DNA of 64,000 nucleotides, taken from positions 186,001 to 250,000 of the forward strand of contig AODO01000010.1 of assembly GCA_000341795.1 (NCBI GenBank), in the 5' to 3' direction. The stretch's first letter is position 1. Each line of letters begins with the position of its first letter. Below, piece after piece: positions 47,552-64,000 of the stretch. A program made the position numbers and the translations under genes. The notes under the pieces are model-generated. The model saw nothing but the letters and a program-made list of their open reading frames with translations. It made no database searches and was not told where the DNA came from. Source of the stretch: Rhodococcus triatomae BKS 15-14. GTDB taxonomy: Bacteria; Actinomycetota; Actinomycetes; Mycobacteriales; Mycobacteriaceae.

Positions 47552-47868
47552 CCGCGACGACTGCCCGGCAGGTCGCGGTGGGCCCGGTCTCGGACCTGAC
47601 CCGGGGTGAGGGCCGCACCTATGTGATCGACGGCAGCCAGATCGCCGTGTTCCTGCTCGCCGACGGCACCGTCCGGGCGATGGACGCGGTGTGCCCGCAC
47701 AAGGCGGGTCCGCTCGCCGACGGCCAGATCGACGGTTCCGTGGTGACCTGCCCGCTGCACCAGTACTCCTTCCGGTTCGACACCGGCGCCTGCACCGCCG
47801 ACACGGTCACACCCGTCCGGGTCCACCCGGCGCACGTGAGCGACGGGACGGTGATCGTGCAGCTCTGA
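47548..47868 (+). CDS. nirD: Nitrite reductase small subunit (Rieske-type)
   Basis: A 106-residue Rieske [2Fe-2S] protein that partners NirB. Ligands are CPHKAG and CPLHQYSF, spaced as C-x-H-x(16+)-C-x2-H. Unlike many nirD proteins it retains the full set of ligand residues. The ATG at 47548 overlaps the nirB stop (ATGA). The nirD stop is 47 bp before narG, close enough for one transcript. Confidence 0.93.
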   Translation: MTATTARQVAVGPVSDLTRGEGRTYVIDGSQIAVFLLADGTVRAMDAVCPHKAGPLADGQIDGSVVTCPLHQYSFRFDTGACTADTVTPVRVHPAHVSDGTVIVQL

Positions 47869-47915
47869 CCGGCTCCCGACTCGCTCTGTCGCACTTCGTC
47901 TTTCGAGAGGCATCC

Positions 47916-50900
47916 ATGACTCCGACCACCGGGACCCCGAGCACCGGGTCCCAGCACACCGGCAAGCTGGACGCGGACGCGCTGCTCCGCTTCGGCAAGC
48001 ACTTCCAGCGCGGCGAGCCGTCCGCCGACATGCGCACCCTGTACCAGATCGGCGGACGCACGTCCGACGACTTCTACCGCGACCGGATGTCGTACGACAA
48101 GGTCGTCCGGTCGACGCACGGGGTGAACTGCACCGGCTCGTGCTCGTGGAAGATCTACGTCAAGGACGGTGTGATCACCTGGGAGGCGCAGCAGACCGAC
48201 TACCCGTCGATCGGGCCGGACAAGCCGGAGTACGAGCCACGCGGCTGCCCGCGCGGTGCGTCGTTCTCCTGGTACACGTACTCCCCCTCGCGAGTGCGCT
48301 ACCCGTACGTGCGCGGTGTGCTGCTCGAGATGTACCGCGACGCCAAGGCACGTCTGAAGGATCCGGTGCTGGCCTGGGCGGACATCGCCGACGACCCGGA
48401 GAAGTCCACGACGTACAAGGCGGCCCGCGGCAAGGGCGGGTTCGTCCGCGCCGAGTGGTGGGAGGCCGCCGAGATCGTCGCCGCGGCGCACGTGCACACG
48501 ATCAAGAGGTACGGCCCGGACCGCGTCGCGGGATTCTCGCCCATCCCCGCGATGTCGATGGTCAGTCACGCGATCGGCGCCCGGTTCATCTCGCTGCTCG
48601 GTGGCGCGATGCTCTCGTTCTACGACTGGTACGCCGACCTGCCCGAGGCGTCGCCGCAGGTGTTCGGTGACCAGACCGACGTTCCCGAGTCCGCGGACTG
48701 GTTCGACGCCGGTTACCTGATCATGTGGGGCTCGAACGTGCCGGTGACACGTACGCCCGACGCGCACTACATGACCGAGGCCCGCTACCGCGGCCAGAAG
48801 GTCGTCGTGGTCTCCCCCGACTACGCCGACAACACCAAGTTCGCGGACCAGTGGCTGCCCGCCCGCCCCGGCACCGACGGCGCGCTGGCGATGGCGATGG
48901 GTCACGTCATCCTGACCGAGTTCTTCGTGCGCAAACAGGTTCCGCGCTTCGTCGACTACGTGAAGCAGTACACGGACCTGCCGTATCTGGTGACGCTCGA
49001 ACCGCGGCCGGTGGACGCGAGCACGAACGGTCACGGCCCGACGTACGTGCCCGGCAAGTTCCTCACCGCCGCCGACCTCGGCGACACCGGGGAGGGCGCC
49101 ATCCACAAGACGGTGCTCCTCGACTCCGCGACCGGTGAGCCGATGGTCCCGAACGGCTCGCTCGGCGACCGGTTCACCGAATCCGGCAAGGGCAGATGGA
49201 ACCTCGACCTGGAGGGTGTCGAGCCGGTGCTCAGCCTCCACGGAGGCGACAACGAGACCGTGGTGGTCGACCTCCCGCGCTACGACACCAACACCCCCGG
49301 GGTCCTGCACCGCGGCGTACCCGTGCAGACAGTCGCCGGACGCCTCGTCACGACCGTCTTCGACCTGATGCTCGCGCAGTACGGTGTCGCGAGGGAAGGA
49401 CTTCCCGGCACCTGGCCGACGGGTTACGACGACGCCGACGAGCCGTACACGCCGGCGTGGCAGGAGGGCATCACCGGAGTTTCGGCCGCATCCGCGGCGC
49501 GGGTGGCGCGCGAGTTCGCCGACAACGCGGACCGGTCGGGCGGCCGGTCGATGATCCTGATGGGTGCGGGCACCAACCACTGGTTCCACTCGGACCAGAT
49601 CTACCGCTCGTTCCTCACGCTGACGCTGCTGACCGGCTGCCAGGGCGTCAACGGTGGCGGCTGGGCGCACTACGTCGGTCAGGAGAAGTGCAGGCCCGTG
49701 ACCGGCTGGTCGACACTGGCGTTCGGCAGCGACTGGGCCCGGCCGGCGCGCCAGATGCAGGGAACCATCTTCTGGTACCTCGCCACCGATCAGTGGCGGT
49801 ACGACCCGTTCACCTCGGAGGCGATGGCGTCCCCGCTCGCACGGGGAGCCTTCGCCGGGCGCACGGCAGCGGACAACATCGCTCTCGCATCGCGCCTCGG
49901 ATGGATGCCGACGTATCCCACGTTCAACCGGAACCCGCTCGATCTCGCGGACGATGCCGAGCGGCTCGGAAAGAACCCGGCCGACCACGTCGTCGACGGC
50001 CTCAAGTCGGGCCACCTGCAGTTCGCCGTCGAGGATCCGGACGCACCCGAGAACTTCCCACGGACGCTGACCGTGTGGCGCTCGAACCTGCTCGGCTCGT
50101 CCGCCAAGGGAAACGAGTACTTCCTGCAGCACCTCCTGGGCGCCGGCTCGAACCTGAACGCCTCGGACTCGACCGGGGTGCGCCCGGAGGAGCTGGTGTG
50201 GCGGGACGAGGCACCCGCGGGCAAGTTGGACCTGCTCACCACCCTGGACTTCCGCATGACGAGCACCACCCTGTTCTCGGATGTCGTGCTGCCGGCGGCG
50301 ACCTGGTACGAGAAGCACGACCTCTCGAGCACCGACATGCACCCGTTCGTGCACGCGTTCTCGCCGGCGATCTCCCCGCCGTGGGAGACGAAGACCGACT
50401 TCGACGCCTTCCACCGCATCGCGCGCGGATTCAGCTGGCTCGCCGAGAAGCACCTCGGCACCCGCAAGGACGTGGTCGCGGTGCCGCTTCTGCACGACAC
50501 GGTCGACGCGACCGCCCAGCCGGGCGGCAAGGTCCTGGACTGGAAACGCGGTGAGTGCGAGCCGATTCCCGGCAAGACCATGCCGAAGCTGGTCGTCGTC
50601 GAGCGGGACTACACGACGATCGCGGAGAAGATGGGGGCGCTCGGACCCCTCGTCGAGGAACTCGGCCTGACGACGAAGGGGGTCACCACCTTCCCGGCCG
50701 AGGAGGTCGCCTACCTACGCGCCGTCAACGGGGCCGTCGCGACCGGCCCGGCCGCGGGACGCCCGTCGCTGGCGAAGGACCGGCACGCCGCGGAGGCGAT
50801 CCTCGCGTTGTCGGGTACCACCAACGGGCGGCTCGCCACCCAGGGTTTCGAGCACCTGGAGGAACGCACCGGTACCCGGCTCGTCGACCTGGCTGCGGAG

Positions 50901-51650
50901 AACGAGGGCACCCGGATCCGGTTCTCCGACACCCAGGCCCGGCCGGTGCCGGTGATCACGTCACCGGAGTGGTCGGGCAGCGAGACCGGGGGCCGCCGCT
51001 ACTCGCCGTTCACCATCAACACCGAACGGCTCAAGCCGTGGCACACGCTGACCGGTCGACAGCACTTCTACCTCGACCACGACTGGATGGCCGAACTCGG
51101 AGAGCAACTGCCGATCTTCCGCCCGCCGTTGGACATGACGGCCCTGTTCGCCGAGCCCGCGGTCGGCGAGACACACGGCAACGGTGTCGGCGGCAGCGTC
51201 ACCGTCCGGTACCTGACCCCGCACAGCAAGTGGTCGATCCACTCCGCCTACCAGGACAACCTGCACATGCTGACCCTGTCCCGAGGTGGTCAGACGATCT
51301 GGATGTCCGACGTGGACGCCGCGAAGATCGGTGTCGCGGACAACGACTGGATCGAGGCGACCAACCGCAACGGGATCGTCGTGGCCCGCGCGATCGTCAG
51401 CCACCGGATGCCCGAGGGCACGGTGTTCATGTACCACGCCCAGGACCGCGCGGTGGACGTGCCGCGTACGGAGAAGACCGGCAAACGCGGCGGCATCCAC
51501 AACGCGCTGACCCGCGTGATGATCAAGCCGTCGCACCTGATCGGCGGATACGCGCAGCAGTCGTTCGCCCTCAACTACCACGGGCCCACCGGAAACCAGC
51601 GCGACGAGGTCACCACGATCCGTCGCCGCGACCAGGAAGTGACGTACTGA
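47916..51650 (+). CDS. narG: Respiratory membrane-bound nitrate reductase, alpha subunit
   Basis: NarG carries the Mo-bisMGD site that reduces nitrate to nitrite. The 1,244-residue protein has the FS0 cluster ligands His68, Cys72, Cys76 and Cys111 (HGVNCTGSCSWKIYV and EPRGCPRGAS) and long stretches typical of NarG, such as GSNVPVTRTPDAHY and RPGTDGALAMAMGHV. No twin-arginine signal is present, so the enzyme should face the cytoplasm, as in E. coli NarGHI. The ATG at 47916 is near a GAGAGG site. The stop overlaps narH by one base. Confidence 0.97.
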   Translation: MTPTTGTPSTGSQHTGKLDADALLRFGKHFQRGEPSADMRTLYQIGGRTSDDFYRDRMSYDKVVRSTHGVNCTGSCSWKIYVKDGVITWEAQQTDYPSIGPDKPEYEPRGCPRGASFSWYTYSPSRVRYPYVRGVLLEMYRDAKARLKDPVLAWADIADDPEKSTTYKAARGKGGFVRAEWWEAAEIVAAAHVHTIKRYGPDRVAGFSPIPAMSMVSHAIGARFISLLGGAMLSFYDWYADLPEASPQVFGDQTDVPESADWFDAGYLIMWGSNVPVTRTPDAHYMTEARYRGQKVVVVSPDYADNTKFADQWLPARPGTDGALAMAMGHVILTEFFVRKQVPRFVDYVKQYTDLPYLVTLEPRPVDASTNGHGPTYVPGKFLTAADLGDTGEGAIHKTVLLDSATGEPMVPNGSLGDRFTESGKGRWNLDLEGVEPVLSLHGGDNETVVVDLPRYDTNTPGVLHRGVPVQTVAGRLVTTVFDLMLAQYGVAREGLPGTWPTGYDDADEPYTPAWQEGITGVSAASAARVAREFADNADRSGGRSMILMGAGTNHWFHSDQIYRSFLTLTLLTGCQGVNGGGWAHYVGQEKCRPVTGWSTLAFGSDWARPARQMQGTIFWYLATDQWRYDPFTSEAMASPLARGAFAGRTAADNIALASRLGWMPTYPTFNRNPLDLADDAERLGKNPADHVVDGLKSGHLQFAVEDPDAPENFPRTLTVWRSNLLGSSAKGNEYFLQHLLGAGSNLNASDSTGVRPEELVWRDEAPAGKLDLLTTLDFRMTSTTLFSDVVLPAATWYEKHDLSSTDMHPFVHAFSPAISPPWETKTDFDAFHRIARGFSWLAEKHLGTRKDVVAVPLLHDTVDATAQPGGKVLDWKRGECEPIPGKTMPKLVVVERDYTTIAEKMGALGPLVEELGLTTKGVTTFPAEEVAYLRAVNGAVATGPAAGRPSLAKDRHAAEAILALSGTTNGRLATQGFEHLEERTGTRLVDLAAENEGTRIRFSDTQARPVPVITSPEWSGSETGGRRYSPFTINTERLKPWHTLTGRQHFYLDHDWMAELGEQLPIFRPPLDMTALFAEPAVGETHGNGVGGSVTVRYLTPHSKWSIHSAYQDNLHMLTLSRGGQTIWMSDVDAAKIGVADNDWIEATNRNGIVVARAIVSHRMPEGTVFMYHAQDRAVDVPRTEKTGKRGGIHNALTRVMIKPSHLIGGYAQQSFALNYHGPTGNQRDEVTTIRRRDQEVTY

Positions 51651-53296
51651 TGAGGGTTATGGCGCAGATGGCCATGGTGATGAACCTGGACAAGTGCATC
51701 GGCTGTCACACCTGCAGCGTCACCTGCAAGCAGGCGTGGACCAATCGTGGCGGCGTCGAGTACGCGTGGTTCAACAACGTGGAAACCCGCCCCGGACAGG
51801 GCTACCCGCGGCAGTACCAGGACCAGGAGAAGTGGAAGGGCGGCTGGACGTTGAACAAGCGCGGCAAGCTGACCCTGAAGTCGGGGTCGCGGTTCAAGCG
51901 GCTGCTGAACATCTTCGCGAACCCGGACCTGCCGACGATCACCGACTACTACGAGCCGTGGACGTACGACTACGACAACCTGCTCGCGTCGGCGCCCATG
52001 GACACCACCCCGGTGGCCCGACCGAAGTCGCTGCTCACCGGAGAGGACACCAAGGTCACCTGGGGCGCGAACTGGGACGACGACCTCGGCTCCGGTCCGG
52101 ACCAGGTCGGCCGGGACCCGCTGCTGGCCAAGGTGTCCGACAAGGTGAAGCTCGAGTTCGAGCAGACGTTCATGTTCTACCTGCCGCGCATCTGCGAGCA
52201 CTGCCTCAACCCGGCGTGCGCCGCGTCCTGCCCGTCGGGCGCGATCTACAAGCGGTCCGAGGACGGCATCGTCCTCGTCGACCAGGACAAGTGCCGCGGA
52301 TGGCGGCAGTGCGTCACCGGTTGCCCGTACAAGAAGATCTACTTCAACCACAAGACCGGCAAGGCCGAGAAGTGCACGTTCTGCTACCCGCGGATCGAGG
52401 TGGGCATCCCGACCATCTGTTCGGAGACGTGTGTCGGCCGACTGCGCTACATCGGCGTGATGCTCTACGACGCCGATGCGGTGCTCGACGCCGCCGCGGT
52501 GACCGACGACGAGGACCTGTACCCGTCGCAGCTCGGAGTGTTCCTCAACCCGCACGATCCCCGCGTGATCGCCGAGGCCGAGCGGGCCGGCATCTCCTCC
52601 GAGTTCATCGAGGCGGCCCAGAATTCGCCGGTGTACAAGCTGATCGTCGACTACCAGGTGGCGCTGCCGCTGCACCCGGAATACCGGACGATGCCGATGG
52701 TCTGGTACATCCCGCCACTGTCGCCGATGGTCGAGGCGCTGTCGGACACCGGGCACGACGGCGAGTCCGCGGACAATCTGTTCGGCGCCATCGATTCGCT
52801 GCGCATCCCGATCGAGTACCTGGCGGAGCTGTTCACCGCCGGTGAGATCGGGCCGGTCCGGGCGTCGCTGCAGCGTCTGGCCGCGATGCGAGCGCACATG
52901 CGTCAGGTCAACCTCGGTGAGTCGGTCAAGCCGGAGGTCGCCGAGGCCGTCCGCCTCACCCCGGACGAGCTCACGTCGATGTACAGGCTGCTCGCCCTGG
53001 CCAAGTACGAGGACCGGTACGTGATCCCGACCGGCGCCGGCTCGGACGCACACCGGCTGGACGCTCTGGCCACCGGCTGCAGCCTCGAGGACGAGGGCGG
53101 GCCCGGCATGGGCGGACCGAGTGCAGGCGGGCCCGGTATGACGGCGTTCGAGGTGATGGCGGACAAGTTCCACCTCGTCGGCGAGGACTCCAATGCCGCT
53201 GCGCCGGAGCACAAGGAACGGCGGATCAACCTCCTCAACTGGGACGGCCGGACCACCGAGGGCCTGGTCCCGGTCGGCTCCCGAGAGGAGTCGTGA
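51650..53296 (+). CDS. narH: Respiratory nitrate reductase, beta subunit
   Basis: NarH wires electrons from NarI heme to NarG through four Fe-S clusters. The 548-residue protein shows the cysteine groups CIGCHTCSVTCKQAW, CEHCLNPACAASCPSGAIY, CRGWRQCVTGCPYKK and CTFCYPRIEVG. In the third group Trp replaces a Cys, which gives the [3Fe-4S] cluster typical of NarH. The C-terminal portion (about 430-548) has the NarH-specific extension with Gly-rich GGPGMGGPSAGGPGM. The start overlaps the narG stop (TGATG). Confidence 0.97.
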   Translation: MRVMAQMAMVMNLDKCIGCHTCSVTCKQAWTNRGGVEYAWFNNVETRPGQGYPRQYQDQEKWKGGWTLNKRGKLTLKSGSRFKRLLNIFANPDLPTITDYYEPWTYDYDNLLASAPMDTTPVARPKSLLTGEDTKVTWGANWDDDLGSGPDQVGRDPLLAKVSDKVKLEFEQTFMFYLPRICEHCLNPACAASCPSGAIYKRSEDGIVLVDQDKCRGWRQCVTGCPYKKIYFNHKTGKAEKCTFCYPRIEVGIPTICSETCVGRLRYIGVMLYDADAVLDAAAVTDDEDLYPSQLGVFLNPHDPRVIAEAERAGISSEFIEAAQNSPVYKLIVDYQVALPLHPEYRTMPMVWYIPPLSPMVEALSDTGHDGESADNLFGAIDSLRIPIEYLAELFTAGEIGPVRASLQRLAAMRAHMRQVNLGESVKPEVAEAVRLTPDELTSMYRLLALAKYEDRYVIPTGAGSDAHRLDALATGCSLEDEGGPGMGGPSAGGPGMTAFEVMADKFHLVGEDSNAAAPEHKERRINLLNWDGRTTEGLVPVGSREES

Positions 53297-54051
53297 TGGG
53301 TGCACTCGGCCTGCGCCGGAACAGGCGCGCCGCACCGGCCGACGAACCCCTGAACGAAACCCGGCAGCGCCTGGTGTGGCGCATCGCGGCCCTCGTGCTC
53401 GACTACCCGCACCCGTCCACGCTCGACCTGCTGGACGACCTGCGCGACGCTGCGACACAGCTACCGGAACCGGCCGGATCCGGCCTGCTCGCGTGCATCG
53501 ACCACCTGCGCGAGCAGGACCCGATCGCGCTCGCAGCCCGCTACGTCGAGACGTTCGACCTGCGGCGCCGATCGAGCCTGCACCTGTCGTACTACGCGTA
53601 CGGCGACACCCGGAACCGCGGAATGGCATTGCTCCGCTTCAAGACCGCGTATCGCAACGCCGGCCTCGAACTCGGCGACCACGAACTCCCCGACTTCCTG
53701 CCGGTGGTCCTGGAGTTCGCCGCGACCACCGACCCCGTCCGCGGACGGCGACTGCTCGTCACCCATCGTGCCGTCGTCGAGGTCCTCCGACTGTCGTTGC
53801 ACGACAGCGGATCGCCGTACGCGAGCGTCCTCGACGCGATCTGCGCGACACTGCCCGACCTCGACACCGACGATCGTGCGCAGGTGGTGAAGCTCGCCGC
53901 GGAGGGTCCTCCCGAGGACTCGGTCGGCCTCGACACCTACGCGCTCGACCCGGCGCTGCACCCCCACATCGGTTCGTACAGAGACGGCACCGCCGTCGAC
54001 GACCATCCCGGCTTCGGCGTCCCCACCTCTCAGATCGGAGCCACCCGGTGA
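53296..54051 (+). CDS. narJ: Nitrate reductase assembly chaperone
   Basis: NarJ binds apo-NarG and allows Mo-cofactor insertion. The 251-residue helical protein has LVLDYPHPSTLDLLDDL, the conserved YVETFDLRRRSSLHLSYYAYGDTRNRG and ELPDFLPVVLEFAA. Two starts are possible: GTG at 53293 and ATG at 53296. The ATG is chosen as it has GGAG 7 nt upstream and overlaps the narH TGA. Its TGA overlaps the narI GTG. Confidence 0.93.
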   Translation: MGALGLRRNRRAAPADEPLNETRQRLVWRIAALVLDYPHPSTLDLLDDLRDAATQLPEPAGSGLLACIDHLREQDPIALAARYVETFDLRRRSSLHLSYYAYGDTRNRGMALLRFKTAYRNAGLELGDHELPDFLPVVLEFAATTDPVRGRRLLVTHRAVVEVLRLSLHDSGSPYASVLDAICATLPDLDTDDRAQVVKLAAEGPPEDSVGLDTYALDPALHPHIGSYRDGTAVDDHPGFGVPTSQIGATR

Positions 54052-54782
54052 GCACCCTGCTCTGGCTGACCCTCCCGTACATCGCCCTGACCTCGTTCGT
54101 CGTCGGCCACGTCTGGCGCTACCGCAAGGACCAGTTCGGGTGGACCACCCGGTCCTCGCAGATGTACGAGTCGCGGCTGCTGCGCCTGGGCAGCCCGCTG
54201 TTCCACTTCGGCATCCTCGCGGTCCTCGCCGGACACGTCGGAGGCGTGCTGATCCCGGCGAGTTGGACCAGTGCACTGGGCATTTCGGACGGCACCTACC
54301 ACCTGCTGGCGGTCGGCATGGGCGTCCCTGCCGGGCTCGCGACCGTCGCGGGACTGGCGATCCTCGTCTACCGGCGCATCGCGGTACCGAGCGTCCGCAA
54401 GGTCAGCACCACCAACGACAAGATCATGTACGTGATCTTCATCGTGGTCATCGCGACGGGCATGTACAACACGATGGGCGAGAACCTGATCCTCGGACAC
54501 TACGACTACCGTTCCACGGTCTCGCCGTGGTTCCGCAGCCTGTTCTCGCTCAGCCCCCGGCCCGAACTGATGGTCGGGGTACCGATGAGCTTCCAACTGC
54601 ACGGTCTGACCGTGCTGGCACTCCTCGCGATCTGGCCGTACACCCGGCTGGTGCACGTGTTCAGCGCCCCGCTCGGGTACCTGGGTCGGCCATACGTCGT
54701 CTATCGGAGCAAGGACGTGAAGCGACCGGGCGGAAACCGGTACGACCGCGCCTGGGAAACGGCAAACCGGACGCGAGCGTGA
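54048..54782 (+). CDS. narI: Respiratory nitrate reductase, gamma subunit (cytochrome b)
   Basis: NarI is the membrane quinol oxidase that carries two b hemes. The 244-residue protein has five membrane segments, beginning LLWLTLPYIALTSFVVGHVWRYRKDQFGWTTRSSQ. His residues placed for heme ligation are in SPLFHFGILAVLAGHVGG and in FQLHGLTVLALLAIWPYTRLVHVFSAP. The GTG at 54048 overlaps the narJ stop (GTGA). It is the last gene of the nir-nar run, followed 142 bp later by the porin. Confidence 0.95.
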   Translation: MSTLLWLTLPYIALTSFVVGHVWRYRKDQFGWTTRSSQMYESRLLRLGSPLFHFGILAVLAGHVGGVLIPASWTSALGISDGTYHLLAVGMGVPAGLATVAGLAILVYRRIAVPSVRKVSTTNDKIMYVIFIVVIATGMYNTMGENLILGHYDYRSTVSPWFRSLFSLSPRPELMVGVPMSFQLHGLTVLALLAIWPYTRLVHVFSAPLGYLGRPYVVYRSKDVKRPGGNRYDRAWETANRTRA

Positions 54783-54923
54783 ACACGACGTGTCCACGGG
54801 GTGGAAAACTGCGCGTTCACCGACGGCATCCGATAGCGTTCGAGGTGGTTCGGGGATGTTTGCCCACGCCGGTGACCGGGTGCGTGCCCGCATCCGGGAG
54901 ACAACCCAACGGATGAGGTGTCC

Positions 54924-55667
54924 ATGGACGTCAGTCGTTCGGAACGTCGGATTCGTCGAAGTACCACCGCGTCGGCCGCCAGCTCGGTCCGACATCGCTC
55001 CCGGGCACTGGCCGCCGCCGGTGTCGCTGCACTGATGGTCGGACTCGGAACCGGCACCGCCGGCGCCGTCGTCAACAACGCCAGCAGCATCGTCGACGGG
55101 TCGGACAACCTCGTCGAGATCAGCCAGGGTGACACCTCGATCGTCGGGGTTCCGCCGCTGGACAGTTCACCGCTCAGCCGGGAGTTCTTCCACAGCGGAT
55201 ACGTGGAGGGCCGGATCAGCGGCCCCGGCGCCGATTCGATGGCGGGCAGCAAGATCTCCTTCGGCTACCAGGTCGGCTACCCGATCGCGCTCGCGGGCGC
55301 GACCGTGCAGCTGAACACCCCGGGACTCGGGTGGGAGCTGGAGAACACGAACGGCCTCGACCTGATCGGATTCCTTCCGGGCGGGGACGAACCGGACATC
55401 ATCATCGGCACCGAGAACCGGTCCATGCTGGCCGGCGACATCATTCCGCAGCAGAACCTGATCTTCGAACTCGAGCCGGGCGGCATCACCGACATCCCGG
55501 TCGTCGACGGCAAGGAGTTCGACGGTCCGGGTGCGAAGATCCGGATCGGCAACGTCCACGGCAGCGTGTCGGGCGCCATCGGCCCAGTCACCCTGCGCCC
55601 GTACGCGAAGCTCGAACTCGCGTCCGGAGACATCGTGATGACCTACGGGGCCCCGGTCCCGATCTGA
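54924..55667 (+). CDS. MspA-family outer-membrane (mycomembrane) porin
   Basis: A 247-residue precursor with an extended signal peptide: an arginine-rich start, a hydrophobic stretch ALAAAGVAALMVGLGTGTAGA and cleavage near Ala48. The mature part shows the MspA pattern: EFFHSGYVEGRISGPG, GSKISFGYQVGYPI, and the C-terminal GAIGPVTLRPYAKLELASGDIVMTYG. MspA proteins form octameric channels across the mycolic-acid outer membrane. The ATG at 54924 has GAGG upstream; an in-frame GTG at 54918 is an alternative. It may supply hydrophilic solutes such as nitrate to the neighbouring transporters (inference). Confidence 0.92.
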   Translation: MDVSRSERRIRRSTTASAASSVRHRSRALAAAGVAALMVGLGTGTAGAVVNNASSIVDGSDNLVEISQGDTSIVGVPPLDSSPLSREFFHSGYVEGRISGPGADSMAGSKISFGYQVGYPIALAGATVQLNTPGLGWELENTNGLDLIGFLPGGDEPDIIIGTENRSMLAGDIIPQQNLIFELEPGGITDIPVVDGKEFDGPGAKIRIGNVHGSVSGAIGPVTLRPYAKLELASGDIVMTYGAPVPI

Positions 55668-55721: not shown

Positions 55722-55779
55722 CGTGTGTGACACGACTCGCCCCCGGCCGGGTCGGCTGGGTCGGGACCGCCGGCTCCCC

Positions 55780-55785
55780 TACCCT
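55780..55785 (+). promoter_or_regulatory. Leaderless-type -10 box (TACCCT) of the jet operon
   Basis: Plus-strand TACCCT with 6 nt before the GTG of jetA at 55792; no SD. Confidence 0.5.
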
Positions 55786-55791
55786 GTCACG

Positions 55792-57324
55792 GTGAGCGAA
55801 TCCGGCCCCGCACCCGACGACCCGTCGGAACACCGTCGTGACGACCCGTCGGTGCGCCTCGCCGACGACGTCGCCGCCGAGCGGCTCCGCATGTTCGCGT
55901 TCGCAACTGCAGACAAACGCGCCGACTACCTGTCCGTCCTGCAGGCGTTCGACCATGCCAGGACCCACTACGTCGTGCTGCTGCACGCGGCCGACGTCGC
56001 CGACACCCTCACCCGGATCGGCCGGCCCGCGCTGTCGGCGGCGGAGATCACCCCCCTGCTCGACCAGCTCCACCACTGGGGCGTGCTCGAACGCAGCTAC
56101 GACGGTTCCCGGGCCGCAACTCTGGCGGAGTACCGCAACCGTCACTTCGTGTACCAGTTCAGCCGGCTGGGCTACCAGGCGTTCCGGGCGGTCCGGGACG
56201 TGCTGGCACTGCGACTCGACGACGCCGCCCTCTCCCGGCTGGCGTTGCCGGATCTGCTGGCGGATCTGCGCCGACTCGCGGAGGCGAACGGCCGCGGCGA
56301 CGGGGAGTTGATCTACCGCACGCTGCGGCGCCTCGACTCGACGCTGTCCGACATGGCCGCCCGGGCATCCCAGTTCTATCTCACGCTCGGCGACCTCGTC
56401 CGGACGACCGAGATCACCCCCGAGGCGTTCCTCACCCGCAAGGACGCGCTGCTGACCCACATGCGGGAGTTCAGCTCCGACCTTGCCCGGTACGCCCCGA
56501 AGCTGGCGTCCGCGATCGCGGACGTCGAGCAGACCGGAGTCCACGATCTGCTCGAACGTGCAGCAGTGGCAGACGAGCGGCTGTTCCTGACCGTCGCGGA
56601 GCGGCAGGCGGACTGGACTCGGAGGTGGGCCGGACTCACGCAGTGGTTCGTCACGGCGTCCGACGGTCCGAGCGAATCCGAGCGACTGCGCGAGGGAACG
56701 ATGGCCGCGATCTCGGCGGTCCTGTCGTTGCTGCGCCGCGTCACCGAGACCCGTCGTGGTGGTGTCAGCCGGGAAAGTCAACTGCGGCACCTGGCCGGCT
56801 GGTTCGCCGGCGCTCCGACCGAGGACGCCGCACACGCGTTGTTCCAGGCGGTCTTCGACCTCGGTAGGCCCCGGCACCTGTCGACGGTGCATCCGGACGC
56901 CGACGTCATCCCGGAATCGCGGTCCTGGTGGGACGCACCGCCGGTGGAGATCTCCCGGACTCTCGCCGAAACGGGAAAGCCGGCCGCCGCGGGCGCGCCG
57001 GGCCGAGTGCAACGCAACGAGGCGAGCATCCGACGACTGCGCGACGCGCAACTCGCGGCGCAGCGAGCGCGGGCGGAGGCCGCCCGGTCCCTCGCGACCG
57101 GCGGCGCCTACGACCGTGTCCTCGGCGAGGAGGAGACCGACGTGCTGCTCGGCCTGCTGACCGCGGCGCTGACCGCTCGCGTTCCGGTCAGCGGAGTCGT
57201 GCGCGCCAGCACCGGCTCCGAGAACGGGGTGCGGCTCACCCTGACTCCGCACGAGGCGTCGACGACGGTCGAGACCGCGCGCGGCAGGCTGCATCTGGAC
57301 CGGCTCCGGGTGAGCGTCCAGTGA
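55792..57324 (+). CDS. jetA: Wadjet-type JetA (DUF2397/TIGR02677 family)
   Basis: A 510-residue protein of the TIGR02677/DUF2397 family, the kleisin-like JetA of one Wadjet subtype. Conserved stretches are LRMFAFATADKRADYLSVLQAF, LLDQLHHWGVLERSYDG (winged-helix) and FYLTLGDLVRTTEITPEAFL. The C-terminal segment AQRARAEAARSLATGG is a helical linker. JetA should bridge the JetC heads and recruit JetB. The GTG at 55792 is supported by a TACCCT box 6 nt upstream. Its TGA overlaps the jetB GTG (57321-57324). Family assignment is from memory of the motifs. Confidence 0.85.
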   Translation: MSESGPAPDDPSEHRRDDPSVRLADDVAAERLRMFAFATADKRADYLSVLQAFDHARTHYVVLLHAADVADTLTRIGRPALSAAEITPLLDQLHHWGVLERSYDGSRAATLAEYRNRHFVYQFSRLGYQAFRAVRDVLALRLDDAALSRLALPDLLADLRRLAEANGRGDGELIYRTLRRLDSTLSDMAARASQFYLTLGDLVRTTEITPEAFLTRKDALLTHMREFSSDLARYAPKLASAIADVEQTGVHDLLERAAVADERLFLTVAERQADWTRRWAGLTQWFVTASDGPSESERLREGTMAAISAVLSLLRRVTETRRGGVSRESQLRHLAGWFAGAPTEDAAHALFQAVFDLGRPRHLSTVHPDADVIPESRSWWDAPPVEISRTLAETGKPAAAGAPGRVQRNEASIRRLRDAQLAAQRARAEAARSLATGGAYDRVLGEEETDVLLGLLTAALTARVPVSGVVRASTGSENGVRLTLTPHEASTTVETARGRLHLDRLRVSVQ

Positions 57325-58661
57325 GGGCCGGACAGCTGTGGGCCCGGGAGATTTCACCGCTGACGCTCGAGTCCTATCAGCGGGCGGCCCGGGTGATCCT
57401 GGCGAATCATCTGGTGACCACCTCGTATCCCGATCCGCTGGCGCTGCCGCTGCTGCGGCGGTGGGCCACGGAACTGCGCGACGACCTGTTGGAGCTGTTC
57501 GGCTACCGGCTCGAGGTGACGGAGACGACGGCGCGGTTGTTCACGGCCGCGGACCGCCTCGACCCGACCGCTCCAGCCACGGCCGGTGACCGTCCGTTCG
57601 ATCGGCGACGCTACGCGTACCTCGCCCTGGCGCTGGCTGCGCTGGGGCGTGCCGGCAACCAGATCACGCTGTCGGAGCTCGCCGACCATGTCGCGGCGGA
57701 AGCCACCCAGGTCCCGGCCGTGGACCTGTCGCCCGAGCGGTTCACGGACCGCAGCGCCCTCGTGGATGCGATCGGATGGCTCACGACCCGCGGCGCGATC
57801 CGACTCGCCGACGGCGACGCATCGGGTTGGGCGTCCGATCCCGATGCGGGCGAGGCCCTCTACGACATCGACCGGTCGGTGGTCATCGCCCTGTTCCGTC
57901 CCCCGCGAGCACTGCAGCACCTGACGTCGGTGCGGGGGCTGCTCACGGTGGCCGACGAGGCAGGCACGACCCGGGAGACGGCGCGCCGAGTTCGTCGGGC
58001 GTTGGTGCAGCATCCGGTGGTGTACGCGGACGATCTCGACGACGACGAACGGCTGCAGCTGGCGTTGCCTCGGACCGCCGCCGACGTCGCGCTGCTGACC
58101 GGCCTGGTCGTCGAGCGCCGAGCGGAGGGCATCGCACTGATCGATCAGTCGGGGCGCCTGTCGGACATCCGGTTCCCGGGTACGGGGACGATCGCACAGG
58201 TCGCACTGCTGCTCGCCGGGGAGATCGCGGATCGCGTCCAGGACCCGGACGCCCCGCCACCGGTTCGGATTCCCTTGCCCGACGGTCGAACCGACGACCT
58301 GGCGACCCAACTCGACAACGCGATCCCCGCGGCCGGTGTGCTGCGGGAGTTGGCGGACGACGTACCGGAACCTCGACCGAGCACCTCCGCACCTGCCGTG
58401 ACCTACGCGTTGATCGAGGACAGCTGGATCGACGACGCCGTCAGCGAACTGACGCGGCGCTTCGGACGCACCTTCGCCGCGCAATGGCAGGCCGACCCCG
58501 AGGGCCTGCGGCGACGGTCGGTCGACCTGCTCGACGCGCAGCGCCTCGTCCGGAAGGTCGACGGCGGGGTGCTGGCACTCCCGGCACTGGCCCGCTACCG
58601 CGGAGTCGTCGTCACCGTCCGTGAACGCGCCCTGCAACCCGACCTGCTGACCGAATCCTGA
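57321..58661 (+). CDS. jetB: Wadjet-type JetB (DUF2398/TIGR02678 family)
   Basis: A 446-residue protein of the TIGR02678/DUF2398 family, the JetB (KITE-like) partner of JetA and JetC. Recognisable are SPLTLESYQRAARVILANHLVT at the start, ELRDDLLELFGYRLEVTETTARLF, DRRRYAYLALALAALGRAGNQITLSELADHV and DRSALVDAIGWLTTRGAIRLADGD. GTG at 57321 overlaps the jetA stop. It is followed after 20 bp by jetC with GAGG before its ATG. Part of one operon. Confidence 0.85.
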   Translation: MRAGQLWAREISPLTLESYQRAARVILANHLVTTSYPDPLALPLLRRWATELRDDLLELFGYRLEVTETTARLFTAADRLDPTAPATAGDRPFDRRRYAYLALALAALGRAGNQITLSELADHVAAEATQVPAVDLSPERFTDRSALVDAIGWLTTRGAIRLADGDASGWASDPDAGEALYDIDRSVVIALFRPPRALQHLTSVRGLLTVADEAGTTRETARRVRRALVQHPVVYADDLDDDERLQLALPRTAADVALLTGLVVERRAEGIALIDQSGRLSDIRFPGTGTIAQVALLLAGEIADRVQDPDAPPPVRIPLPDGRTDDLATQLDNAIPAAGVLRELADDVPEPRPSTSAPAVTYALIEDSWIDDAVSELTRRFGRTFAAQWQADPEGLRRRSVDLLDAQRLVRKVDGGVLALPALARYRGVVVTVRERALQPDLLTES

Positions 58662-58681
58662 GGAATAGAGGCTGACTTCGC

Positions 58682-61600
58682 ATGGCAAGTGCGCGTTTCC
58701 GACCGACCCGCGCCGGGATCGTCAACCTGTGGGACTACCGCGACCAGGAGTTCTCCTTCGCCGACGGCCGCCTCGTCCTGCGCGGCCCCAACGGCTCCGG
58801 CAAGACGAAGGCCCTCGAGGTGCTCTTCCCCTTCGTCCTCGACGGACGGATCGAGCCGCGCCGGCTGAACCCGTTCGCCGGCGAGGAACGAACGATGAAG
58901 TCGAACCTCCTCTACCGCGGGGACGAGACCGCCCACTCGTACGTGTGGATGGAGTTCGCGCGCGGCACCGCCTCCGATCCGGAAGCGGTGACGGTCGGCA
59001 TCGGGATGCGTGCCAGCCGCCAGAACGACAAGGTGACACGCTGGCATTTCGTCGCCGACGGCCGCGTCGGAGTCGACTTCTCGCTCATCGGCGCCGGTGA
59101 CCAGCCACTGACGAAGAAGCAGCTGGCCGAGCAGATCGGGGCGGACGCGATCACCGACCGTCCCGTCGATCACCGTGCGGCGATCGACGCCCGGCTGTTC
59201 GGGCTCGGTGCGCAGCGGTACGACCAGCTGATCACGCTGATCCTCACGCTGCGGCGGCCCCAGCTCGCGAAGAACCTCGACCCGAAGGGGTTGTCACAGG
59301 CGTTGACCGACGGCCTGCGTCCGATCGACGATCAGCTCGTCGTCGAGGCCGCACGCTCGTTCAGCGACATGGAGGAGGTCGGCCGGGCGCTGGAGGGTCT
59401 GACCACCGCGGATCAGGCCACGCAGGACTTCGTGGCGGTGTACACCAAATACCTTCGGCAGCAGGCGCGAACCGATGTCGAGCAGGTCGCCCGACGATTC
59501 GAGTCCGTGTGGACGGCCACCGCCGCGGTGTCCGAAGCCGTTGCCGGGCAGGATCATCGGCAGAAGGAACGCACGGTCGCGGAGGAGCGGTTGGTCGCCG
59601 CCGAACGCGAGCTCGATCTCGCCCGCGCCGAACTCGAGACCCTGCAGCGGTCGAGTGCCTACGAGGGCAAACAGCAGCTCGACGATCTCGGAGCCGTCGT
59701 GGCCGACCTGCGCAGGTCGACCGATCAGCAGGCGGACAAGTCCGCGAAAGCGCAGGCGAGCCTCGCGCAGCGGGCGGACGAGGCCACGCAGTCACAGGCT
59801 CGGGTGACGCGGGCGACGGAGTCGCTCGTGCGCGCGGAGGAGCTCCTGCAGGAAGCGGCGGGTGACGCGGGCATCACGTGGACCGCGTTGCCCGACACCG
59901 CCCGCGGCGACGAGATCACGGCGTCGGTGCGAGGGCACGCCGAGGAGCGCTCCGGTGACGTCCGGGCGATGCGGGACGCGCTGAGCGCGCTCGAGCGGGC
60001 CGGTGCCGAGCGGTCTCGCGCCGACCGGGCAGCCGACCGGGGCCGTGAGCACCTCGAGTCGGCGACGGCCGCGGTGAAGGAGGCCGAGGCCGCGACAGCA
60101 CTGGCCAGGACCGAATGCCAGGGCATGTTGCGCCGGTGGTGGGCGGCGCACTCGGCGCTGTACGCCCGCGTCGGGGTGTCGAGCGCGATGTTCGTCGCCC
60201 TGCACGATGCGGTGCCCACCGTCGGCACCGACGACGCGGAGGGTTTCCCGGAGATCCTCGCCGACCACACCACGGAGCCCCTCGACGCGGTGCGCGGACG
60301 TCGTCGGGACGCCGAACAGACCGCGGCACGTGCCGCGGCCGCTCGTGCCGAGTGCGCAGCCGACCGGGCTCGGGTCGCATCCGAACACGACGACGCACCG
60401 CCCGCCCCCCCCGCCCGCACCGGTGACCGCTCCGGCCTGGCCGGAGCGCCGCTGTGGCGGCTGGTGCGGTTCGCGGACGGCGTCGACGCCGCCACGGCGG
60501 CCGGGATCGAAGCGGCGTTGGAAGCCGCCGGCCTCCTCGACGGCTGGGTGCCGGCCGAGGACGTACCCGAGTCGACGTCGGAACTGTTTCTGCTTCCCCT
60601 TCCCCCCGGCGATCGCCCCGGGGGACGGACGCTGGCGGACGTGCTGGTCGTGGAGCCGGATGCGGGAGTGCCGGAGTTCCGCGTCGCGGATCTACTGGCT
60701 TCGATTGCGCTGCAGGATGATTCGAGTGCCAACGACGTCGTCGGGGTCGGGGCCGACGGCCGGTTCCGGCAGGGTGTGCAACTCGGCGTCCACACGAAAC
60801 CCGAGGCGGAGTTCATCGGCGCGACGGCGCGGCAGCGGCGCCGCGAGCTGCGGCTCGCCGAACTGGACGCCGCGATCGAGCAGGCCGAGGCGGAGCGGGC
60901 CACAGCGCTCGCCGAGCACTCGGAGGCGTCCGACCTGCTGAACGCGCTCACGGCGGCGGGCAAGTCACTTCCCCGACCGACGGGCGTGCTCACCGCGCTG
61001 CGCGGCGTCGCCGAGGCAGCGGGCGCGCTCCGGACTCGCGACGAGGCGGCCGCGGTGGCCCAGCGTGAACTGGATCAGGCGATCGCCGAACTCTCCGCGC
61101 AGGAACGCGCGCTCCGCGAGGCGGCCGCCCGCCACCGTGTCGCCGATCCGGTGCGGGGCCTCGACGCGCTGTCGGCGGCGATCCGGCATTTCGAGACCGC
61201 AGGCGACGATGTCGTCCGCTGCCGGCGCGACCGGGAGAAGGACATCGAGCGCAGCCGCGAGGCCGACGACCGGTACGCGGAGGCCAGGGATGTCGCGGAA
61301 GAGTTCGCGGAAGAGTCCGCCGCGGCGCAGGAGAAGCTGCTGCACCAGGTCCAGAATCTCGAGATGCTCCGAGAGAAGATCGGCGCCGGTGCGGACGACA
61401 TCGAGGCCGACATCGACCGGGCGCGCGCCCGGATCGACGCGGCCACCGCAGAGCAGCGCGCCGCACGCAAGGCCGGCGATGTCGCCGTCGAGGCGATCGG
61501 CAAGGCGGCCGGCGCGTACGGCGCCGCGGTCGAGGCGCTGCGATCCGCGCTCACCGAAACACGATCGGACACAGCACGTCTCGCACCGTACGCCCGGCGT

Positions 61601-62839
61601 GACCTGCTCGATCTGCTCGGCGTCGTCGGGGCCCACACGTGGCCGGCGTCGGACGCGGCGTGGCTGAGCACCGATCAGCTCGTGTATCGGATCGAGAGCG
61701 AACCGGACACACCGGCACCGGTGGTGCCCGCCGAGGTCGCCGCCCTGCACGCCGCCCTCGACGCCGCGACGGCCGAGGTGAAGGTGTCCGAGGGGGCGGG
61801 CAAGTCGGCGCGCTCGGCACTGACCGGCGCCCTGCAGGAGTTCGACGCCCGGCTCGCGGCTGCGGGACAGGACTACCGGCTGCGCTGGGACGCGGCGGAC
61901 GGGGTCACCACGGTCTCGGTCCAGCACGACCAGGGGCAGTCGTCGATCGCCGACTTCGCCGCGATGATCGCTCGCAGCCGAGACGACCAGCAGCAGTTGC
62001 TCACCGATTCGGAGCGGCGGATCCTCGAGGACGCGCTGCTGACCGGGCTGGCTCAGCAGATTCACGAGCGAACCGTCGACGCGCGCGACCTGATCGCGCA
62101 GATGGCCGCCGAGATGCGGGGCCGACGGATGTCGTCGGGCAACACCATCGGGGTGCACTGGGTTCTCGCGGACAACATCGACGACGGGTCACGCGCGGTG
62201 TCGAAGCTGCTCGACCGGGACACGTCCGCACTCGGACCCGACGAGCTCGCCTCGATCCGCGCGCATTTCGCGAATCGGATCCGGGCGCTCCGCGCTGCGC
62301 ACCCGGAACGCGCGTACCCGGAAATCCTCACCGAAGCGCTCGACTACCGCCGCTGGCGGGTGTTCTCGTTCACGCTGATCGGCGGAGACGGCACCGAGGA
62401 CAAACTGACCGTCGCCCGGCACGGGGCACTGTCCGGTGGTGAGCAGTCCGTGTCGCTGCACCTGCCGCTGTTCGCGGCCGCACACGTGATGCTCTCGTCC
62501 GCGGACCCGCACGCTCCGCGCCTGCTCGGCCTCGACGAGGCGTTCGCCGGTGTCGACGACAACGGCCGGAGCGAACTCCTCGGTATGAGCGTGCAGTTCG
62601 ACCTGGATCTGTTCATGACCGGCTACGACCTGTGGGTCACCTACGCCGACGTTCCCGGTTGCGCACACTACGATCTCTCGCACTCGACCCCTGAGCACTC
62701 CGTCAGCGCCACGCTGATGGTGTGGGACGGAGGGATGCTCATGCAGGAGCACGACGGCACCGACCTGACGAAGGCGCTCGGATCACCCGGCCGGCGCAAG
62801 ATGCTGGAGCCGGGCGGGCTGGAGTTCGCGGAAGTGTGA
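58682..62839 (+). CDS. jetC: Wadjet-type JetC SMC-like ATPase (TIGR02680 family)
   Basis: A 1,385-residue SMC/MukB-like motor. Walker A is GPNGSGKT (35-42). Two long Ala/Glu/Arg-rich coiled-coil stretches (about 260-480 and 720-1000) flank a central hinge region. The C-terminal head has the ABC signature LSGGEQ (about 1250) and Walker B LLGLDEAFAG (about 1281). In Wadjet, JetC extrudes DNA loops and, with the JetD nuclease, cleaves small circular plasmids. No jetD follows here. A hairpin covers the jetC stop codon, so the operon seems to end with this gene. Confidence 0.88.
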   Translation: MASARFRPTRAGIVNLWDYRDQEFSFADGRLVLRGPNGSGKTKALEVLFPFVLDGRIEPRRLNPFAGEERTMKSNLLYRGDETAHSYVWMEFARGTASDPEAVTVGIGMRASRQNDKVTRWHFVADGRVGVDFSLIGAGDQPLTKKQLAEQIGADAITDRPVDHRAAIDARLFGLGAQRYDQLITLILTLRRPQLAKNLDPKGLSQALTDGLRPIDDQLVVEAARSFSDMEEVGRALEGLTTADQATQDFVAVYTKYLRQQARTDVEQVARRFESVWTATAAVSEAVAGQDHRQKERTVAEERLVAAERELDLARAELETLQRSSAYEGKQQLDDLGAVVADLRRSTDQQADKSAKAQASLAQRADEATQSQARVTRATESLVRAEELLQEAAGDAGITWTALPDTARGDEITASVRGHAEERSGDVRAMRDALSALERAGAERSRADRAADRGREHLESATAAVKEAEAATALARTECQGMLRRWWAAHSALYARVGVSSAMFVALHDAVPTVGTDDAEGFPEILADHTTEPLDAVRGRRRDAEQTAARAAAARAECAADRARVASEHDDAPPAPPARTGDRSGLAGAPLWRLVRFADGVDAATAAGIEAALEAAGLLDGWVPAEDVPESTSELFLLPLPPGDRPGGRTLADVLVVEPDAGVPEFRVADLLASIALQDDSSANDVVGVGADGRFRQGVQLGVHTKPEAEFIGATARQRRRELRLAELDAAIEQAEAERATALAEHSEASDLLNALTAAGKSLPRPTGVLTALRGVAEAAGALRTRDEAAAVAQRELDQAIAELSAQERALREAAARHRVADPVRGLDALSAAIRHFETAGDDVVRCRRDREKDIERSREADDRYAEARDVAEEFAEESAAAQEKLLHQVQNLEMLREKIGAGADDIEADIDRARARIDAATAEQRAARKAGDVAVEAIGKAAGAYGAAVEALRSALTETRSDTARLAPYARRDLLDLLGVVGAHTWPASDAAWLSTDQLVYRIESEPDTPAPVVPAEVAALHAALDAATAEVKVSEGAGKSARSALTGALQEFDARLAAAGQDYRLRWDAADGVTTVSVQHDQGQSSIADFAAMIARSRDDQQQLLTDSERRILEDALLTGLAQQIHERTVDARDLIAQMAAEMRGRRMSSGNTIGVHWVLADNIDDGSRAVSKLLDRDTSALGPDELASIRAHFANRIRALRAAHPERAYPEILTEALDYRRWRVFSFTLIGGDGTEDKLTVARHGALSGGEQSVSLHLPLFAAAHVMLSSADPHAPRLLGLDEAFAGVDDNGRSELLGMSVQFDLDLFMTGYDLWVTYADVPGCAHYDLSHSTPEHSVSATLMVWDGGMLMQEHDGTDLTKALGSPGRRKMLEPGGLEFAEV

Positions 62840-62859
62840 GGGGAGGTGTCCCCGCACAC
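62834..62859. terminator. Hairpin at the jetC stop codon
   Basis: GTGTG-A-GGGG (62834-62843), loop AGGTGT, CCCC-G-CACAC (62850-62859): a 9-bp stem with one mismatch. It overlaps the last jetC codons and lies 33 bp from the end of the converging mini-gene. Confidence 0.6.
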
Positions 62860-62892
62860 TCCGTTGTGACCGTGGCCTGCGGAACGTCGCGG

Positions 62893-63093
62893 TCAGCCGG
62901 ACCCGAGTTCGGGATGCCGCCGCACCAGCTCCGCCTGGACACGTCGGAGCGACGCGATCTCGTCATCCAGTGCGGCGAGATCACGCGCCATCCGTTCCAC
63001 GTGTCCCTGGAGTTCGCGCATCTCCACGGCGAGTTCGTCGCGTTCCAAAGTCAAACGGGCGATCTCCGCAGCGGCCGGACTCGTCACGTCCAT
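62893..63093 (-). CDS. Small coiled-coil protein of unknown function
   Basis: A 66-residue protein, MDVTSPAAAEIARLTLERDE onward, almost entirely a predicted coiled coil with heptads such as LTLERDELAVEMRELQGHV and IASLRRVQAELVRR. There are no Cys and no membrane segment. The ATG at 63093 overlaps the end of the HNH gene (stop at 63084) by 10 bp, which suggests coupled translation. It converges on jetC. I do not recognise the family. The short length leaves some doubt that it is expressed. Confidence 0.6.
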   Translation of the reverse strand: MDVTSPAAAEIARLTLERDELAVEMRELQGHVERMARDLAALDDEIASLRRVQAELVRRHPELGSG

Positions 63094-64000
63094 TCGTCGA
63101 CGGTACGCCTGGACGCCTCAGAAGGGCGGTGGTTCGCTGTCGTCGCGCACGGGCACCTCACCGGCGCCTCGCCGCCCGACGACACGGGGTCTGGGCGGTC
63201 CGAGATCTTGAGTTGATGATGAAAGGCGCACAGGCACTGCAGGTTCGACACGATCGTCCACCCGCCGACGACGGGGTTCCGTGCCGAGAACTCCACGATG
63301 TGGTCGAGCTGACACTGTGCGGCGGGACGGTGACAGCCGGGGAACCGACAGTGTCGGTCGCGCGCCCTCACGAGCGCCGCCGTCGACGCGTCGGGCCGAT
63401 AGGCCAGCACCCGAGGAGACGGAACCGTCAGTCCGCCGTGCCCGTCTCGGTGCACACCGTTCACCAGCGCCGGATTCGTCTGCACGGCCACGAGAATCGC
63501 CTCGGCCATCGTTCCGACACCTGTCGGTGGCGCAGAGGGAGCCACCAGGGGTGCCGCCGTCCGACGACTCCCCCGTGCAAGGAACGACCGCACAGCCGAG
63601 TGCGGCGCAGGGAGGCCGGCAGTATCGGTGAGACCGAGCCCTTCCGCGAGGTCCACCAGTTCGACGAGCATCGCCTGCCACGTCCCGGAACGAGCCAGCC
63701 TGCGACCGAGTTCCGGATCGATCTGCCCGTGACCATGCAGGTATGCCGGTTCCGACACCAGACCGAGCAGCGTCTGCAGGTCGACGGTGATCTGTGTGAG
63801 TGGCGCCCGCCGCCCGGGCAACGCGGCCGCTCCCCGAGCGGAGCAGTCGTGGTGGCCGCACCGGCACCGAAGGTAGGGCTCACCGTGCATCAACGGCAAC
63901 AGGGCGTCGACCGACTTCTCCTGCCCACCACGCGGATCACGAGCGCACACCGTCTTCGTGAACTCTGCGATCAACTGCATCATCGCCTCGCCCTCCTCCG
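63084..64000 (-). CDS. DUF222/HNH endonuclease (13E12-repeat type), 5' end outside the window
   Basis: At least 305 codons; the frame is open to the window edge and continues upstream (the residues just before MMQLIAEFTKT are EEGEA), so the true start is outside. The N-terminal part is DUF222 (LMHGEPYLRCRCGHHDC and the TVDLQTLLGL element). The C-terminal HNH motif is CRFPGCHRPAAQCQLDHIVEF through NLQCLCAFHHQLK. Such proteins belong to the multicopy 13E12 family, often tied to mobile elements. The tail after HHQLK is unusual and runs over the start of the 66-residue gene. Confidence 0.85.
   Translation of the reverse strand, partial: EEGEAMMQLIAEFTKTVCARDPRGGQEKSVDALLPLMHGEPYLRCRCGHHDCSARGAAALPGRRAPLTQITVDLQTLLGLVSEPAYLHGHGQIDPELGRRLARSGTWQAMLVELVDLAEGLGLTDTAGLPAPHSAVRSFLARGSRRTAAPLVAPSAPPTGVGTMAEAILVAVQTNPALVNGVHRDGHGGLTVPSPRVLAYRPDASTAALVRARDRHCRFPGCHRPAAQCQLDHIVEFSARNPVVGGWTIVSNLQCLCAFHHQLKISDRPDPVSSGGEAPVRCPCATTANHRPSEASRRTVDEWT

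Follow-up and report, generated by a model that had tools for sequence, protein, structure and literature searches.

A type II Wadjet core without its nuclease gene in Rhodococcus triatomae and relatives, and its probable retention as a chromosome-organising complex

What might the motor of a Wadjet defence system do in a bacterium where the nuclease that does the cutting is missing? The question is raised by a locus in the draft genome of Rhodococcus triatomae BKS 15-14 (5.82 Mb in 73 contigs, rated 100% complete), in which jetA, jetB and jetC of a type II Wadjet system stand together on the forward strand and jetD, the gene for the nuclease needed for plasmid cleavage, does not follow them. 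The window that we analysed is a stretch of 64,000 bases (bases 186001–250000 of the 280,979-base contig AODO01000010.1); coordinates below count from its first base. We put at roughly 60% the probability that these genes form a type II Wadjet core which has lost its JetD nuclease and has been retained as a functional complex of three subunits, nuclease-free and most likely chromosome-organising. The reading of a nuclease-free core rests on the open, full-length state of the three genes, from which jetD is missing, on the presence of jetD at the same chromosomal place in some relatives, on outgroups with a complete jetD, on the repeated absence of the gene and on purifying selection on the subunits that remain.

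The operon and the missing nuclease gene

The first gene, jetA, fills an open reading frame (ORF) at 55723..57324, and its start is uncertain: the ORF begins at 55723, the gene caller begins at 55852, and an earlier annotation made from the letters of the window (the sequence-only reading) began at 55792. As called, jetB (57321..58661, within an open frame that begins at 56928) overlaps jetA by 4 bases and is separated by 20 bases from jetC (58682..62839), which encodes an SMC-like ATPase of 1385 amino acids. All three proteins passed the curated cut-offs of their families with near full-length matches, which bears out the claim of the sequence-only reading that Wadjet families lie here in their usual order with overlaps or short gaps. 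JetA, the kleisin subunit by family, scored 261.8 bits against TIGR02677 (cut-off 165.85), 473.7 bits against Pfam DUF2397 and 614 bits against PADLOC JetA2. JetB, by family the KITE subunit, scored 137.9 bits against TIGR02678 (cut-off 124.65), 246.4 bits against Pfam DUF2398 and 686.7 bits against PADLOC JetB2. For JetC the scores were 730 bits against TIGR02680 (cut-off 462.85; profile positions 1–1352 of 1356) and 1442 bits against PADLOC JetC2, and the protein also matches an SbcC/Rad50-like Walker B family in Pfam. Its ATPase regions, which we take to be the Walker A, signature and Walker B motifs, are intact, and nearly all columns there are invariant among 23 aligned relatives. A profile of these 23 relatives matched the solved JetC chain 9qe0_A (E 3.2e-109), and R. 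triatomae JetA matched the solved JetA chain 9qe0_E (E 3.8e-13), 9qe0/9qe1 being recognised as a JetA/JetC complex by chain names only. The same kind of sequence search of solved structures gave no match for the R. triatomae JetB and no credible match for a JetD profile. The roles of JetA as kleisin, JetB as KITE and JetC as SMC subunit are those given in the portions of PMC10586767 consulted.

Compared with type II Wadjet (JetABCD; TIGR02677, TIGR02678, TIGR02680 and TIGR02679), the locus thus has the core subunits in the usual order and close packing but no JetD (TIGR02679/DUF2399) in the operon. In relatives that have it, jetD begins or has just begun within the stretch that corresponds to 62840..62892, which is empty of jetD here. 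Ten ORFs scanned past jetC, some of them merely overlapping frames, included no DUF2399 protein; the earlier statement that no jetD was in view therefore holds at the locus and beyond the window end. The draft genome as a whole gave no match to TIGR02679, DUF2399, a lineage JetD profile of 13 rows from relatives, or the JetD_C family PF09983. The TIGR02679 and DUF2399 searches of this genome were run without a positive control, and the same TIGR02679 search matched 20 of 80 related genomes. Among 58 genomes searched, the lineage profile gave E < 1e-150 in 5/5 jetD-positive genomes (the JetDs of these five are themselves among its rows); in the other 53 nothing credible was seen, the best match being partial (genome G105, E 0.008, 15.8 bits; G-numbers denote compared genomes and L-numbers compared loci). 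PF09983 matched none of 15 genomes, and its control, Corynebacterium glutamicum, was matched.

These searches bear on the suggestion of the sequence-only reading that jetD lies elsewhere. The gene could sit in an assembly gap of the 73-contig draft or be too diverged for detection, and in four other genomes a TIGR02679 gene does lie upstream of jetC instead of downstream. However, four profiles find nothing, six relatives assembled as single contigs (G068, G083, G134, G152, G172 and G174) also lack a match to the lineage profile, and JetD of this clade is readily detected where present: the lineage profile recovers 17 jetD genes in the set of named loci described below, with 375 bits in a locus that is not one of its rows (L198). 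A hidden jetD is accordingly very improbable, an assembly gap being the slight possibility that is left. A degenerate jetD remnant after jetC was likewise rejected, since 17 JetD proteins, compared by tblastn with 4.4 kb of R. triatomae sequence and 4.2 kb of the locus of Rhodococcus sp. RD6.2, gave nothing better than E 0.029.

The sequence-only reading had also proposed that jetD was displaced by insertion of a DUF222/HNH gene, and a DUF222 gene (3' part at 63084..64000, reverse strand) does occupy the place where jetD would be expected. The comparison with RD6.2 decides this point. Its JetC is the closest among the best 80 of 275 named relatives (88% identical), followed by those of other Rhodococcus. 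The gene corresponding to the downstream regulator gene of R. triatomae starts there about 85 bases past the jetC stop, and neither an HNH gene nor jetD lies between. Nor was jetD matched in the other five genomes of the genus, and members without the DUF222 gene after jetC also lack jetD, so that displacement would require separate losses of jetD in relatives. We reject it as having next to no probability.

jetD among relatives

TIGR02680 matches were found in 170 of 301 genomes of the family, R. triatomae included, and 122 were over the cut-off. Eighty genomes, hand-picked across genera and scores, were searched with TIGR02679; 20 matched and 60 did not, the latter including R. triatomae and five others of its genus. 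The genus has jetC in 6/6 genomes compared and a jetD match in 0/6. Loci were compared in two sets, which partly share genomes and whose counts are not additive. The first comprised 61 loci (60 fetched regions and our own), of which 50, again with our own, carry a JetC more than 50% identical to that of R. triatomae in the best tblastn piece; 10 of these have jetD, 39 lack it, and in one (L067) the sequence stops about 730 bases past jetC. Among the 11 more distant loci, jetD follows jetC in L084, L085, L086 and L097 and is missing after it in L064, L087, L088, L089, L091, L103 and L105. The second, named set held the best 80 of 275 JetC relatives from genome contigs, scored with jetA–jetD profiles and covering Rhodococcus sensu lato (with Prescottella and Rhodococcoides), Nocardia, Antrihabitans, Millisia and one metagenome-assembled genome (MAG) of Pseudonocardiaceae (L198). 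Here jetD directly follows jetC in 17/80 loci, 58 lack it and 5 end too soon. The positive loci belong to 13 members of the Rhodococcoides fascians/kyotonense group, R. tibetensis, Rhodococcus sp. SMB37, Antrihabitans stalactiti and the Pseudonocardiaceae MAG. The jetD family was the next gene in all 17 of them and in 0/58 jetD-less loci. Outside this group, as outgroups, complete annotated jetA-jetB-jetC-jetD operons were also seen on two Streptomyces plasmids, with JetC 51–53% identical in the pieces that matched, and on one plasmid of Pseudonocardia (38%); these three loci (L200–L202) were viewed out of 25 plasmid records that matched, and none of 72,556 plasmid records covered 80% of the R. 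triatomae JetC at one place.

Two further arrangements were noticed. In four of the 20 genomes with a TIGR02679 match, all four of one genus (G065:C1, G120:C16, G143:C39 and G294:C3), the gene lies about 2.8–2.9 kb upstream of jetC on the same strand, with room for jetA and jetB between, giving a D-A-B-C order as judged from coordinates only. The distant jetD-less groups L087–L089 and L064/L091/L103/L105, whose JetC is 27–41% identical to ours in the best tblastn piece, appear to be additional type II cores without a nuclease, some of them in metabolic surroundings: L089 adjoins a lipoate ligase, a WYL-type regulator and a GH31 enzyme, L105 an AMP-binding enzyme, a MarR-type regulator and a thiolase, and L087 has an SNF2-type helicase next.

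Many loci with and without jetD share a chromosomal place. On its upstream side the operon there has neighbours that we take, by sequence, to be metH and genes for a PAC2 protein and an MFS transporter; on its downstream side we take them to be mshC and uppP. The mshC-like gene ends 52–68 bases past the jetC match in four jetD-less loci (L130, L132, L141 and L196) and 1.23–1.30 kb past it in jetD-positive loci (14/17, where in view); the 61-locus set shows the same difference in spacing. This mshC-like neighbour is common to the Rhodococcoides group, R. tibetensis and many jetD-less loci. The JetABCD loci of the Rhodococcoides group, R. tibetensis, SMB37 and A. stalactiti fall in the same JetABC clade as the R. 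triatomae locus and, unlike it, have kept jetD directly after jetC. The jetD-less locus of Rhodococcoides kyotonense KB10 (L141) is nested among jetD-positive strains, and its sister L160 has the gene. In another pair, the sequence that follows the jetC stop of jetD-less L151 agrees at 16 of 18 bases, as aligned by eye, with the stretch that precedes jetD in its sister L145 and then diverges, possibly a scar.

A tree of concatenated JetABC proteins (76 rows) had values of at least 95 in the Shimodaira–Hasegawa-like approximate likelihood ratio test (SH-aLRT) on 61 of 73 inner branches, with a warning of long branches that included the outgroup L198. For the most part its groups match genera or species groups, and all 29 Nocardia rows keep JetABC and lack jetD. 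Mapped on this tree, the pattern of jetD takes 6 changes under Fitch parsimony and 14 losses under Dollo parsimony; an earlier tree of the 61 loci, our own among them, took 8 changes and also carried long-branch warnings. Pairwise distances of JetD and JetC are closely correlated (Mantel r 0.979 without L198, 0 of 9999 permutations as high; Pearson 0.88 with L198), and 20 label-shuffled trees were 772–1171 log-likelihood (lnL) units worse than the best JetD tree. Under constraint, neither the deep JetABC order (p 0.071 in the approximately unbiased test, p-AU) nor the two Rhodococcoides subclades (p-AU 0.63) were rejected for JetD; the fine branching inside Rhodococcoides was (p-AU 2e-6). From these data jetD looks old at the locus, mostly vertical in its inheritance and lost many times.

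Selection and the likely role of the complex

Ratios of nonsynonymous to synonymous substitution (dN/dS) were calculated in Nei–Gojobori style with a script of our own, for pairs hand-picked from the tree and with two mixed pairs kept apart. Median dN/dS in jetD-less pairs was 0.072 for JetA (13 pairs), 0.134 for JetB (14) and 0.102 for JetC (14), and in six jetD-positive pairs 0.060, 0.111 and 0.065; R. triatomae against RD6.2 gave 0.072, 0.105 and 0.111. JetABC without JetD is under strong purifying selection. The loss of the defining nuclease might suggest that the locus is the decaying remnant of a defence system. However, dN/dS is low in jetD-less pairs, the family matches of the R. triatomae proteins are near full-length, jetC is present in 6/6 genomes of the genus and JetABC is kept in every Nocardia row, which makes decay highly improbable.

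Several results weigh against a nuclease-free core shaped by repeated loss. The JetABC tree was read without comparison to a species tree. A model of jetD history with gains and losses fits better (lnL −20.0) than one with losses only (−25.4); a history of gains only was the worst of the three (−35.1) and was rejected, and a history of losses only is thus not the best either. The exact JetABC topology was rejected for JetD (delta lnL 53.6, p-AU 5e-5). Together, the better fit of gain plus loss and this rejection make some recombination or re-acquisition of jetD likely. In addition, the median dN/dS of JetC is higher in jetD-less than in jetD-positive pairs. Constraint along JetA, JetB and JetC is alike in the jetD-positive group and three jetD-less groups (window-rate correlations 0.67–0.94), and an N-terminal Y/F-Q-R-A stretch of JetB is largely kept in both kinds of loci where readable. 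No decay of a JetD-binding surface is seen, which would also fit a partner nuclease that remains.

Candidates for such a lost surface were considered. The portions of PMC10586767 consulted describe an IFDR motif of JetB; loss of an N-terminal contact of JetB was rejected, as no loss was seen in jetD-less loci. Among 91 windows of 25 residues, one (JetA 101–125) was conserved in jetD-positive loci and looser in three jetD-less groups, but when one jetD-less group (5 rows) was taken as focal it gave 6 such windows, and we do not count this as evidence of a lost surface. Seven single positions carry a residue specific to jetD-positive loci.

A cutter that, as the relatives suggest, was lost repeatedly and a motor under strong selection together imply that the motor probably has a non-cutting job. 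As described in those portions of PMC10586767, the JetC motor, with JetA and JetB closing it, is loaded onto DNA and uses ATP hydrolysis to extrude loops; in Wadjet the encounter of motors on a small circle is believed to set off JetD. In R. triatomae JetABC would still load on DNA, hydrolyse ATP and extrude loops, and extrusion would continue without cutting; plasmid cleavage by JetABC is unlikely here because JetD is absent. Judged from its protein families, the complex is probably loop-extruding. As is reported for MksBEF of Pseudomonas, it would most likely organise or segregate the chromosome alongside the ordinary SMC protein, which JetABC does not replace, since TIGR02168 was matched over its cut-off in 9/9 genomes searched, R. 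triatomae included. Like MksBEF of P. aeruginosa, the locus combines genes for SMC, kleisin and KITE subunits without a nuclease gene and has been kept under purifying selection; it is set apart, with no comparison run, by its type II Jet families and by the recurrence of the absence within one bacterial group.

Two other functions have to be weighed. JetABC might cut plasmids through an unrelated nuclease encoded elsewhere. The constraint on JetABC barely changes without JetD, and partners in trans are invisible to a comparison of loci. Against this, PF09983 was absent from the 15 genomes searched, and single jetD-less lineages nested among jetD-positive ones, such as KB10, would each need a ready partner. 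Nor does a gene recur downstream of jetC: a same-strand gene lies within 150 bases after jetC in 11 of 58 jetD-less loci, and the commonest family occurs in 3, so that we rejected a recurrent replacement effector there. We regard a nuclease in trans as unlikely, though it is still to be reckoned with. Alternatively, plasmids or other DNA circles could still be the target of JetABC, which would hold, compact or mis-segregate them and leave them uncut. Complete subunits and ATPase regions and a constraint profile the same as that of jetD-positive complexes are consistent with such a role, which we nonetheless hold to be doubtful. Of what the sequence-only reading had offered, the families, the lack of jetD and two options survive, a nuclease-free loop-extruding complex, which we favour, and the use of another nuclease; the displacement by an HNH gene does not.

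In open-licence literature, we found among the matches listed no description of jetD-less type II Wadjet loci in this group. A published table (in PMC12915292, consulted in part) gives R. erythropolis NI86/21 a Wadjet_II with three proteins only and, in that part, without remark on the missing nuclease; R. qingshengii and near relatives are jetD-less in our named set. According to the sections of PMC10482375 consulted, Wadjet is enriched in Actinobacteria and is among systems encoded by 73% of Rhodococcus genomes. We infer that the labels and counts in these parts of the two papers cover jetD-less loci, and part of what is counted as "Wadjet" in Rhodococcus and Nocardia may be something other than defence armed with a nuclease. 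Section 7 of PMC10586767, as far as consulted, discusses descent of MukBEF and MksBEF from Wadjet-like defence, for MksBEF through loss of JetD, as speculation and leaves it unresolved. Since close relatives differ in jetD at one chromosomal place, pairs of related bacteria make it possible to test this question of descent. It is possible, and we suggest it tentatively, that within one bacterial group a DNA-defence SMC complex has repeatedly been turned into a resident one that lacks the nuclease and gives shape to the chromosome. If so, living members of the group display successive stages on the way from Wadjet to a MukBEF/MksBEF-like condensin, which surveys label as anti-plasmid defence.

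Surroundings of the operon

The hairpin over the jetC stop codon that the sequence-only reading had described was found at about 62828..62864 on the forward strand (−25.5 kcal/mol, z −2.3), and 6 of 200 shuffled sequences fold equally well; inspection of the sequence 3' of it revealed no T-run. The leftward mini-gene of that reading is a small ORF of 66 amino acids (62893..63093, reverse strand), which, like the DUF222 gene, is not counted in the operon. The DUF222 domain is confirmed (79.7 bits), and the gene extends about 640–715 bases beyond the window end (to about 64643). No HNH domain was listed for the protein by Pfam at E 0.001; the HNH part of the earlier description rests on a pattern in the translation that we take to be HNH-like. 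The C-terminal end after this motif looks unusual, and the protein may be truncated. Beyond it come a rightward gene for a 970-amino-acid BTAD/AAA protein, presumably a SARP-type regulator, then an FAD-binding oxidase-like and, further on, a polyketide-cyclase-like protein.

Upstream of jetA, several loci, L123 and L060 among them, have a same-strand gene of about 360 amino acids close by (about 50 bases in L123), absent at the R. triatomae locus, whose product we assume to be a DNA-binding regulator carrying an additional N-terminal domain. On the same side of jetA, 23 jetD-less loci, for example that of Nocardia araoensis (L195), have a gene of about 380 amino acids, presumably for an XRE-type regulator; in 17 of them it is the nearest gene. 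In R. triatomae itself, nitrite reductase, respiratory nitrate reductase and MspA-type porin genes lie just upstream of jetA (window 45053–55667), and surroundings with nitrate reductase and the MspA porin, in place of the metH, PAC2 and MFS genes seen elsewhere, are common to 5/6 loci of the genus.

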